A stretch of 64,000 nucleotides of DNA from Alistipes indistinctus YIT 12060 (lineage in GTDB: Bacteria > Bacteroidota > Bacteroidia > Bacteroidales > Rikenellaceae). The position numbers and the translations under genes were made by a program. Numbering within the stretch: the first letter of the stretch is position 1; each line of letters starts with the position of its first letter. The stretch spans positions 2,108,001 to 2,172,000 of the forward strand of contig NZ_CP102250.1 in the NCBI RefSeq assembly GCF_025144995.1. The letters run 5' to 3'. The notes beneath the pieces were generated by a model. It worked only from the letters and a program-made list of their open reading frames with translations, was not told the origin of the DNA and ran no database searches. Shown one piece after another: positions 6,143 through 56,370 of the stretch.

Positions 6143-6361
6143 ATGGCCAAACAAGCTGCTATTGAGAAGGACGGGACGATTATCGAGGCGTTGTCCAACG
6201 CGATGTTCAGGGTTGAACTCGACAACGGCCACGTAATCACCGCCCACATTTCGGGTAAGATGCGGATGCACTACATCAAGATCCTGCCCGGCGACAAGGT
6301 AAAAGTTGAGATGTCCCCGTACGACCTGAGTAAGGGACGGATTTCGTTCAGGTACAAATAG
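6143..6361 (+). CDS. infA: translation initiation factor IF-1
   Basis: IF-1 binds the A site of the 30S subunit during initiation. The 72-residue product is a single S1-like OB fold with the conserved [19 protein letters not shown] and [21 protein letters not shown] segments. Length and context (map-infA-rpmJ) are typical. Confidence 0.98.
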
Positions 6362-54824: not shown

Positions 54825-55361
54825 TTACCGGTCCGGGTTGTCCGGGGCTAGCGAGCCGAGCCACGAGGTATAGTCGGCATCGAGCTCTTCGAGCCGGGCG
54901 AGCGTGCGGGACATCGCGTCGCGTGCGGCGCAGCCCGTGCGGTAGCTTGCATGGGAACGGGACGTCGCGAGGATGCCGTTCAGTTCGTCGAGTAGTTTGC
55001 GGCAGGTGGCGATCCGCTCCCGGCATTCGGCCTGGGCCCGGCGCATCAGTGCGCCCGTTTGGGCGGGGAGCGCTTCGGCGGCCGGGGCCGTTGCGAAAGC
55101 CTGCGCCGGGACTGCGGACCTCGCGGGGACCGGGTCGGCCGTAGGAGTTTGCGCTGCCGGGGCTTGCGCCGTTGCTCCGGTTTCATCCCGCAGTGCGGAC
55201 CGGTCGAGCTTGCCGCTGTCGGGACGGACAACTTCCGCTTGACAGGGATCGGCCGGCGGGGTCGGATGCGGGAAGTCGGGCGGACTGGACGATACCGGAA
55301 GACCGGGGGAGGTCGGCCGGAGGGCAGCCTTCGATCCGGATTTGGAAGAGTGCCGGGTCAT
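54825..55361 (-). CDS. small protein behind structured leader 1
   Basis: 178 residues from the ATG at 55361 (MTRHSSKSGSKAALRP). Residues 1-105 are Pro/Ala/Ser/Thr-rich low complexity, probably disordered. The C-terminal part (about 106-178) is helical: RAQAECRERIATCRKLLDELNGIL, then MSRTLARLEELDADYTSWLG. It is related to the protein encoded at 55755-56069 (LMSCQERINNYRRMITELTEVLE, LESLNGYYLSC). No known domain is recognised. The mRNA is predicted to carry a leader of about 265 nt that contains an attenuator-like terminator 46 bases before the start codon. Confidence 0.65.
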   Translation of the reverse strand: MTRHSSKSGSKAALRPTSPGLPVSSSPPDFPHPTPPADPCQAEVVRPDSGKLDRSALRDETGATAQAPAAQTPTADPVPARSAVPAQAFATAPAAEALPAQTGALMRRAQAECRERIATCRKLLDELNGILATSRSHASYRTGCAARDAMSRTLARLEELDADYTSWLGSLAPDNPDR

Positions 55362-55406
55362 GAGGGGTCGGTGTTGTCCCGTCCGGTCCCGTGACGGAGA
55401 TGCATG

Positions 55407-55627
55407 AAAAAAAGCGTGAGACCGTTGCCACTTACCCTGTCCTGAAGGCCTACGACAGCCCTGTCATGAATAAGCGCAACGGCTCACGCCGATGGCATGA
55501 ACCTGTACGGGCATAACTCATGCCGGACGTGAGCCCGGCCAAGCACGTTGCACTCATTGCTCCATGACGTTCGAAAGGTCGTAGTTTTCAGAACGAAGCA
55601 ATATGACAAACGCTTTCTGACCGTTTG
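55407..55627 (-). ncRNA. structured leader RNA 1 with antiterminator and terminator
   Basis: The RNA runs on the minus strand from about 55627. Visible pairs (+ coordinates) are 55605-55610/55624-55629, 55556-55561/55597-55602, and two nested antiterminator helices, 55473-55481/55546-55554 and 55481-55488/55528-55535. The terminator helix pairs 55477-55489 with 55414-55427, followed by seven U at 55413-55407. The terminator's 5' arm is the same stretch as the antiterminator's 3' arm, so the two folds exclude each other. A nearly identical leader lies at 56116-56333. It could be a known Rfam family that I do not recognise. Confidence 0.65.
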
Positions 55628-55633
55628 TCATAA

Positions 55634-55663
55634 CAAAAGTAATGAAAAAATGCGGAAATGCAA
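55634..55663 (-). promoter_or_regulatory. promoter of leader RNA 1
   Basis: Minus-strand TTG at 55663-55661, 19 bp, and a perfect TACTTTTG at 55641-55634. The predicted start is near 55627. Confidence 0.65.
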
Positions 55664-55754
55664 CCTGCCTTTGTTCAGGACGTTCGCATTGTGCGCAGCG
55701 GCGGGACGCTACCCGGTTCCGGCCGGGATTTCCGCGTCCGGACAGGCTGGAAAA

Positions 55755-56069
55755 TTACTCCTTGGTCTGGCGCGTTTCGCGTGCGATGATGCACGAAAGG
55801 TAGTAGCCGTTCAGCGATTCGAGCTTTTCGAGCACCTCGGTCAGCTCGGTGATCATGCGGCGGTAGTTGTTGATACGCTCCTGGCAGCTCATCAGCGCCT
55901 GCACCACGGCGGTGTAGGTTTCGAAATCGGGGGCTGTTTCGGCGGCCGCAGGATGTCCTGTTTCGGCGGATGCGGCTTGTTCGGCGGCCGGATGGCGTGC
56001 CGGGGCGCTGGCGTCGGACGGTGCGCGCTCGGCCGCGATCATGTCAAAGGCGGTTTTGGAGGTGGACAT
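55755..56069 (-). CDS. small protein behind structured leader 2
   Basis: 104 residues from the ATG at 56069 (MSTSKTAFDMIAAERAPSD). Residues about 15-48 are Ala/Pro/Glu-rich low complexity. Residues about 50-104 are helical (TYTAVVQALMSCQERINNYRRM, TELTEVLEKLESLNGYYLSC), with heptad spacing compatible with a coiled coil. It is a paralogue of the protein at 54825-55361 with a shorter N-terminus. Function unknown. The leader upstream is a second copy of the attenuator-like RNA. Confidence 0.65.
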   Translation of the reverse strand: MSTSKTAFDMIAAERAPSDASAPARHPAAEQAASAETGHPAAAETAPDFETYTAVVQALMSCQERINNYRRMITELTEVLEKLESLNGYYLSCIIARETRQTKE

Positions 56070-56115
56070 TGCGGTAGGTGTTGTCCGGCCCGGTCCCTGC
56101 GGCGGGAGAATGAAG

Positions 56116-56333
56116 AAAAAAGCGTGAGACCGTTGTCACTTACCCCCATGAAGGCCTGCGACAGCCCTGTCCTGAATAAACGCAACGGCTCACGCCGTAG
56201 GCATGAACCCATACAACATAACTCATGCCGGGACGTGAGCCCGGCCATCAGCACGTTGCGTTCATTGCTCCAGGAACATGAAAGGTCGCAGTTTTCAAGG
56301 GGAGCAATATGACAAACGCTTTCTGACCATTTG
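56116..56333 (-). ncRNA. structured leader RNA 2 with antiterminator and terminator
   Basis: Second copy of the leader. Pairs (+ coordinates) are 56311-56316/56330-56335, 56264-56271/56301-56308, antiterminator helices 56179-56187/56254-56262 and 56187-56194/56234-56241, and terminator helix 56183-56195/56122-56135, followed by six U at 56121-56116. Compared with leader 1, the antiterminator pair A-T is replaced by G-C and C-G by U-G, so pairing is kept where sequence changes. The similarity continues past the terminator (GGACAACACC) up to the start codon. Confidence 0.65.
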
Positions 56334-56339
56334 TCAGGT

Positions 56340-56370
56340 CAAAGGTAGTCAAAAAAAAGTGAAACGCAAT
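56340..56370 (-). promoter_or_regulatory. promoter of leader RNA 2
   Basis: Minus-strand ATTG at 56370-56367, 19 bp, and a perfect TACCTTTG at 56347-56340. The predicted start is near 56333. The stretch 56371-56627 upstream shows no gene. Confidence 0.65.

Follow-up and report, generated by a model that had tools for sequence, protein, structure and literature searches.

What the two closely similar leaders on the minus strand of this Alistipes indistinctus YIT 12060 locus do, and whether they belong to a class of RNA already known, was the question raised by the 64,000-nt stretch of DNA analysed here (the window; contig NZ_CP102250.1, positions 2,108,001 to 2,172,000). Both copies, A and B, lie where the original prediction had placed them, are approximately 220 nt long and are 85-86% identical, the likeness extending over nearly their whole length (85% across 248 of 261 query bases; 86% with a 217-base query). 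Each is preceded by a promoter of its own, as had been proposed, and both promoters read TTG, 19 nt, TACYTTTG (Table 1); TAnnTTTG is the usual -7 promoter element in this phylum, and in a text search the string co-occurred with Bacteroides in published papers. Reading of the sequence also bore out the predicted upstream hairpin (TGACAAA/TTTGTCA), the nested antiterminator helices (outer GCAACG/CGTTGC, inner GGCTCACG/CGTGAGCC and tip GGCATGA/TCATGCC) and a terminator helix, in which GCGTGAGCCGTTGC pairs with GCAACGGTCTCACGC in copy B and with ACAACGGTCTCACGC in copy A, that re-employs the 3' arm of the antiterminator and is followed by a U tail (T7 in copy B, T6 in copy A). Within the outer antiterminator helix, a G-C pair of copy B is A-U in copy A and a U-G pair is C-G, with pairing kept. 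Three further elements lay beyond those predicted, namely a helix of the 5' end with the U tract (P1), a 7-bp helix (CUrCGAC/GUCGyAG, hereafter C:C') that covaries between the two copies too, an A-U pair of copy B being G-C in copy A, and a complementarity of the terminator arm to GGGACCG ahead of the start codon.

Table 1. Window positions of the two leader RNAs, their promoters, their predicted pairing segments and the open reading frames (ORFs) behind them
Feature	Positions	Strand	Evidence or remark
Copy B promoter: TTG, 19 nt, TACTTTTG	55634-55663	-	sequence; TAnnTTTG enriched upstream of family
Copy B leader RNA (model span)	55407-55627	-	fold z -5.35; covariance-model matches
Copy B P0 hairpin TGACAAA/TTTGTCA; loop contains P1 5' strand	55604-55630	-	sequence
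Copy B P1 5' strand AGAAAGCG	55611-55618	-	partner CGCTTTTT at 55416-55409; would hide U tract (rod state)
Copy B segment A; partner A' (terminator state) or A'' (rod)	55595-55602	-	permutation tests
Copy B segment C (CUACGAC); partner C' in both states	55578-55584	-	column test (figures in text)
Copy B segment A' (GGAGCAAT)	55556-55563	-	sequence and permutation tests
Copy B segment W (GGCTCACG), antiterminator 5' arm	55528-55535	-	column test of W:X (figures in text)
Copy B segment X (GCGTGAGCCGTTGC), common to antiterminator and terminator	55476-55489	-	column tests of X:W and X:Y (figures in text)
Copy B segment C' (GTCGTAG), within small hairpin	55450-55456	-	column test
Copy B segment Y (GCAACGGTCTCACGC) and T7 tract, terminator 3' arm	55407-55428	-	column test of X:Y (figures in text)
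Copy B segment Z (GGGACCG), complementary to CGGTCTC of Y	55384-55390	-	
ORF of 178 aa behind copy B	54825-55361	-	45 nt from RNA end to ATG
Copy A promoter: TTG, 19 nt, TACCTTTG	56340-56369	-	sequence
Copy A leader RNA (model span)	56115-56333	-	fold z -7.00; covariance-model matches
Copy A P0 hairpin	56310-56336	-	sequence
Copy A P1 5' strand	56317-56324	-	partner CGCTTTTT at 56124-56117; column test
Copy A segment A (ATTGCTCC)	56301-56308	-	sequence and permutation tests
Copy A segment C (CUGCGAC)	56285-56291	-	partner GUCGCAG at 56162-56156
Copy A segment A' (GGAGCAAT)	56264-56271	-	sequence and permutation tests
Copy A segment W (GGCTCACG)	56234-56241	-	column test, sequence
Copy A segment X	56182-56195	-	column test, sequence
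Copy A segment Y (ACAACGGTCTCACGC) and T6 tract	56116-56136	-	column test, sequence
Copy A segment Z (GGGACCG)	56091-56097	-	sequence, Y:Z permutation test
ORF of 104 aa behind copy A	55755-56069	-	45 nt from RNA end to ATG

From these pairings we infer termination, the order of folding and the direction of control as follows. In one state, a rod, A:A'', A':A''' and W:X would form and P1 would cover the U tract, so that no terminator arises and transcription continues, whilst in the other state A:A', A''':A'' and X:Y would yield a hairpin at the 5' side and a long terminator hairpin that runs into the U tract. Helix C:C' is predicted to lie inside the rod in the former and to bridge the 5' hairpin and the terminator hairpin as a kissing loop in the latter. 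The folding energies of the window copies were -95.1 kcal/mol (copy B) and -101.5 kcal/mol (copy A), and none of 200 shuffles of either copy was as low. Of the two states the rod has the lower energy in either copy, which weighs against the attenuator reading; the terminator state, with A:A' and X:Y forced, lies above it by 7.4 kcal/mol in copy B and 12.7 kcal/mol in copy A, a gap that leaves out the 7-bp kissing helix C:C', which would narrow it. The X:Y hairpin was absent from the output of a terminator scanner, whose loop limit of 8 excludes it; the scanner returned three other sites, compared to 1.7 in shuffles.

The wider occurrence of the leaders was opened up only by covariance models, since plain sequence comparison turned up a single clear relative (E 2.4e-11) in 268 genomes of the same family. 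Model R1, built from the two window copies, matched 38 of these 268 genomes at E up to 0.1, and model R2, built from 16 of the R1 matches, matched 251 at E up to 0.01, E-values being rough and per genome. At the latter threshold R2 also matched 152 of 393 genomes sampled from the order, spanning 91 of 207 genera, and, at E up to 1e-4, 43 of 395 genomes sampled from the phylum, comprising the window's own genome, three further members of its order, 38 genomes of its class and one from outside the class. Copy numbers from these large searches are floors, because only the best 6-10 candidates were scored per genome; with up to 150 candidates scored, eight genomes held 5, 7, 8, 17, 8, 9, 14 and 28 copies at E up to 0.01. 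The five matches in the window's own genome were the two leaders and three weaker ones (contig coordinates 324086-324296, 318033-318242 and 2448691-2448913). A sequence pattern located 42 stretches in named records, for example from Alistipes, Rikenella, Tidjanibacter, Dysgonomonas and Culturomica, and also in members of Paludibacteraceae, Lentimicrobiaceae and Prevotellaceae; Alistipes and Dysgonomonas are placed in Bacteroidales, class Bacteroidia. The carriers include bacteria of the gut and of the environment. In aminotransferase loci of related genomes (with flanks of approximately 1.5 kb), a nucleotide profile of the leader found only the window's own copies above the inclusion threshold. 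The duplication of the leader is not unique to the window, as another close pair occurs in a different genome of the same genus (locus L051, 1501-1719 and 1783-1993).

To compare pairings across the family we searched 100 loci with R2, which gave 100 matches at E up to 1e-4 (two each in L045 and L103, none in L076 or L071); one match, L103:209-383, was antisense to another and was dropped, leaving 99 homologues, 96 of them distinct. This first set is a non-random sample, consisting mostly of best-scoring copies, 16 of them from R2 itself, and its alignment leans towards P1, part of A:A'', B:B', C:C' and W:X because R2 contains these helices; X:Y, the small hairpins, A:A', the terminator-stem extension and Y:Z are not part of the model. 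In a column test on the 96 distinct homologues, cells with a standard pair were counted and set against 1000 swaps of whole 3' strands between sequences. Helix C:C' was paired in 671 of 672 cells (swapped mean 447.7, maximum 490), P1 in 817 of 855 (swapped mean 787.5, maximum 798), W:X in 718 of 761 (swapped maximum 699) and the core of X:Y in 554 of 562 (swapped maximum 543), each above all 1000 strand swaps. Both W:X and X:Y covary, and arm X therefore has two mutually excluding covarying partners. The C' hairpin was paired in 357 of 381 cells (swapped maximum 355), whilst stem H1 (GAAA/UUUC, the C hairpin) had no column excess (289 of 384 cells, swapped mean 292.4) and a slight excess per sequence (9.93 versus 9.46; maximum of 2000 permutations 9.90). 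A segment test, in which the best helix within one sequence was compared with the best between swapped sequences, gave signals for the rod pairings (A+B with B'+A'', z 15.2; A'+D with D'+A''', z 25.9) and for the terminator-state pairings (A+B with A'+D, z 5.0; D'+A''' with B'+A'', z 5.8), and none for two control pairings predicted by neither fold (z 1.0 and 0.1). The partner of segment A is thus either A' or A'', and the same two segments are the alternative partners of A''', so that the four form a cyclic set. The signal for D'+A''' with B'+A'' was initially unexpected and corresponds to the terminator-stem extension in the forced fold of the window copies.

The same pattern recurred in a second set of 20 class-level loci from 19 genomes, all outside the first set and picked before testing from the upper part of the phylum-search list. 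The same four segment pairings reached z 9.9, 8.8, 5.6 and 3.0 (D'+A''' with B'+A'' being matched by 11 of 5000 permutations), compared to -2.1 and -0.7 for the control pairings; X:Y gave z 3.1 (reached by 20 of 5000 permutations) and W:X z 5.6 (10 of 5000), W:X being paired in 160 of 160 cells and C:C' in 140 of 140, with P1 weaker (136 of 170). The 20 loci are not mutually independent, because eight come from one genus and four from another, and in both sets the permutation tests ignore kinship, so that relatedness inflates them. Two copies alone were insufficient for this comparison, and the covariance model and homologues that the original prediction had called for found antiterminator and terminator pairs both to covary. 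As far as sequence comparison can speak, both sets of helices are kept by covariation, including two exclusive helices that share one arm, which is what marks an attenuator. The proposed antiterminator/terminator switch stood, but in a more elaborate form than had been foreseen, with four segments that pair in two ways and a pairing to site Z in 54 of the 99 homologues. We consider it probable, though well short of certain, that this unnamed, multi-copy family of Bacteroidia 5' leaders consists of bistable attenuators of the gene behind.

The pairing to site Z links the leader to the downstream mRNA. Approximately seven bases of Y are left unpaired in the rod state and can match Z beyond the RNA end, as CGGUCUC with GGGACCG in both window copies and elsewhere as CAGACUCUC with GGGAGUCUG or GGUCCG with CGGACC. 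The mean Y:Z score in the first set was 15.45, against 13.33 (sd 0.24) after swapping, a value reached by 0 of 300 swaps, and in the class-level set it was 16.25 against 13.18, reached by 0 of 5000. Only 54 of 99 first-set members and 12 of 20 class-level members have a clear helix (score of at least 16). In 53 of the 54 clear first-set cases, the first base of Z falls 15-32 nt beyond the RNA end; across the 54, the median distance from the last base of Z to the ATG is 24 nt (quartiles 19-27). Because Z exists only in read-through RNA, its presence suggests that it locks or uses the read-through form: after passage of the polymerase, free Y would pair with Z, approximately 20-27 nt before the start codon, and thereby lock that form in those members that have Z. 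A post-transcriptional action, whereby the rod and a Y:Z pseudoknot protect the mRNA or gate ribosome access and the second fold serves decay or translation, would draw on the same covariation in read-through RNA, on the placement of Z before the ATG and on the greater stability of the rod in both window copies. We nevertheless think it unlikely, as X:Y and the terminator-stem extension covary and 77 of the 99 homologues have a run of six or more T near the 3' end; a covarying X:Y stem followed by a T run is a need of an intrinsic terminator, not of a purely translational switch. The U tract is alternatively accounted for by its pairing with the A-rich 5' end, which alone would keep it.

Consistent with a leader position, an ORF beginning with ATG (loose criterion: a minimum of 40 aa, lowered to 25 aa for frames truncated at the edge of the locus) starts 15-150 nt downstream of 92 of the 99 RNAs, and at 45-60 nt in 46 of these 92. 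Sense ORFs of at least 80 aa start 15-150 nt downstream in 79 of 95 cases, compared to divergent ORFs on the other side in 15 of 94, these counts omitting loci with too little flank. The TAnnTTTG element was found within 75 nt upstream of 57 of 99 homologues, versus 4 of 99 for a control stretch lying another 300 nt upstream, and upstream of 15 of the 20 class-level homologues. Among the model pairs, G-U outnumbered A-C by 399 to 50, an excess indicating that the sense RNA is the selected strand. These observations bear on the idea of a mobile or repeated DNA element, such as a palindromic repeat or recombination site, that happens to fold, for which one could cite the 5-28 copies per genome in the eight genomes, the several copies near contig ends and a human faecal phage contig whose last bases match the first 43 nt of a homologue. 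According to one study, candidates of this kind are recognized by multiple copies with inconsistent orientation to neighbouring genes (PMC11109978); the leaders do have multiple copies, and their orientation is consistent. A mobile repeat is made very improbable by this strong orientation towards the gene, alongside the upstream promoter motif and the G-U excess that mark a sense RNA; moreover, blastn with a window copy and one homologue gave no match in 72,556 plasmid records, and one narrow exact pattern, itself a weak probe, gave none in viral contigs. A sequence search of a phage collection with the window copy also gave no match. The phage contig in question, MT837787.1 (6.2 kb), is 93% identical to the homologue at 6161-6203, and its end there is possibly an assembly break at a repeated element.

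Not every copy faces a gene. Seven first-set RNAs (L067, L144, L131, L123, L142, L143 and L051) lack an ORF even by the loose criterion, and in 10 of the 20 class-level copies the usual place holds no ORF of 60 aa or more. Such copies count against the attenuator reading and would suit a chiefly free-standing, trans-acting regulatory RNA whose location ahead of a gene reflects one of two functions or is a by-product, and the Flavobacterium sRNA Rfp18 offers a precedent by description (PMC9723704); with most first-set copies facing a gene at a narrow distance and Y:Z tying the RNA to the downstream mRNA, we hold this account to be quite improbable. Rfp18, a structured sRNA widely conserved in Flavobacterium and reportedly needed for normal protease mRNA levels, shares with the leaders the phylum, a strong secondary structure and a tie to secreted proteins, in a comparison by description only, and differs in being presented as an sRNA that stands alone and has predicted mRNA targets (PMC9723704). 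On that description, it could be a free-standing relative of the leader family. Loci L065 and L046 have only doubtful short ORFs behind the leader. Seven of the class-level copies (L196, L200-L203, L206 and L207; six from one genus) look alike and have no convincing ORF, and may be free-standing small RNAs.

The original prediction had supposed an attenuator controlling small proteins, of which the attenuator gained support and the small proteins proved too narrow a description. In the window, the 178-aa ORF matched no Pfam family at E up to 1, and the 104-aa ORF had sub-threshold Pfam matches only, led by DUF3597 at 21.8 bits (cut-off 29.8); neither a peptide-pattern scan of genome contigs nor a search of 60 related genomes other than its own yielded a relative. 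Similarity between the two ORFs is limited to a weak match of 49 residues (E 2e-4 as a single comparison), and by reading neither has a signal-peptide-like start, a crude script having flagged only the 178-aa ORF as lacking one. The conserved object is the RNA, not the proteins. Across the family we collected 83 distinct downstream proteins, and in the 67 that were scanned each Pfam family occurred in at most three, the commonest being BACON (three), followed by LRR_5, WG repeats, YCF48-like, OMP barrel, the T9SS sorting tail and others (two each); each NCBIfam family was found in at most two. A signal-peptide- or lipobox-like start was detected in 74 of 89 downstream proteins by a crude test, a raw count without a genome-wide background. 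The family thus appears to precede unrelated genes, mostly with signal-peptide-like starts.

If the leaders are indeed attenuators, a cell-wide signal, either a small molecule or an RNA-binding protein, would be expected to tip the balance between the two states and so set the expression of many surface proteins. A bolder version, which we offer tentatively and would not bet on, holds that one such signal (e.g. a nucleotide second messenger) flips the rod to the double hairpin and terminator through a branch-migrating four-way junction, uniting dozens of unrelated surface-protein genes in each genome into a single regulon controlled by a new, Bacteroidia-wide riboswitch-like class of RNA. Should the attenuator reading be correct, surface and secreted proteins would form an RNA-controlled regulon in a large part of Bacteroidia. 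Because the folds are defined base by base and up to 28 copies occur per genome, the system lends itself to direct testing and supplies natural replicates of a bistable RNA.

The leaders resemble several known kinds of regulatory RNA. TPP riboswitches attenuate transcription with mutually exclusive antiterminators and terminators, and c-di-GMP riboswitches precede many unrelated surface genes. In common with attenuating riboswitches, the leaders have a 5' position, their own promoter, exclusive folds, a U tract and many copies before unrelated surface genes; they differ in having no Rfam 15 match or known ligand, in a covarying helix common to both folds and in the extra pairing that, in approximately half of the members, extends beyond the terminator to the region ahead of the start codon. 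Ligand binding is the defining feature of a riboswitch, and we therefore file the family provisionally as an attenuator rather than a riboswitch. Attenuators of the trp type are read by a translating ribosome and also contain segments that pair in two alternative ways, a likeness to the leaders, whereas the leader family has no conserved leader peptide: an ATG ORF of at least 8 aa near the 5' end and ending inside the RNA was present in only 18 of 99 homologues, with scattered lengths, and a ribosome-mediated attenuator of this type was rejected.

The original prediction had allowed for a match to an existing Rfam family, which was not borne out in the window or in 38 homologous loci. No Rfam 15 family reached its gathering threshold in the whole 64-kb window, and a permissive search of 1.2 kb around the leaders gave three sub-threshold matches only (E 0.9-2.5). 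In 18 homologous loci none lay over the RNA, with one TPP riboswitch and two sub-threshold matches elsewhere in those loci, and none was found in the 20 class-level loci. The TPP riboswitch (L046, 1345-1445, minus strand) adjoins a leader homologue before an apparent thiC and shows that the Rfam search works. Regarding the outcomes that had been named in advance as speaking against a leader attenuator, the pairs do covary, no known RNA matched and a mobile repeat is unlikely by orientation. On this evidence the family is unnamed and absent from Rfam 15, and would be new as a family, the attenuator kind itself being known.

We did not find the leader family described in the open-licence literature, taken without supplements. 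A 2017 collection reportedly contains 224 motifs. The terms Bacteroid, Alistipes and Dysgonomonas are absent from the main texts of PMC11109978 and PMC8632094. Among 3,161 candidates from human microbiomes, as reported by Fremin and Bhatt in 2021 (PMC8040213), there may be pieces of the leader family. Structured RNAs of Bacteroidetes were described by Weinberg in 2010, including Bacteroidales-1, Bacteroides-1, Bacteroid-trp, Flavo-1 and 6S-Flavo (PMC2864571); as presented there, these resemble the leaders in being structured and of the same phylum, and differ in that no Rfam match was found over the leader RNA.

Two minor observations concern the coding sequence around the leaders. On the plus strand of the window, a 254-aa open frame (55548-56312) runs antisense to most of both leaders and the 104-aa ORF, and is probably spurious. 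Elsewhere, loci L063 and L064 (1501-1678, minus strand) from two genomes carry leaders of identical reading ahead of different lipoproteins with alike signal peptides, as if the leader and the signal peptide had been kept while the remainder changed.
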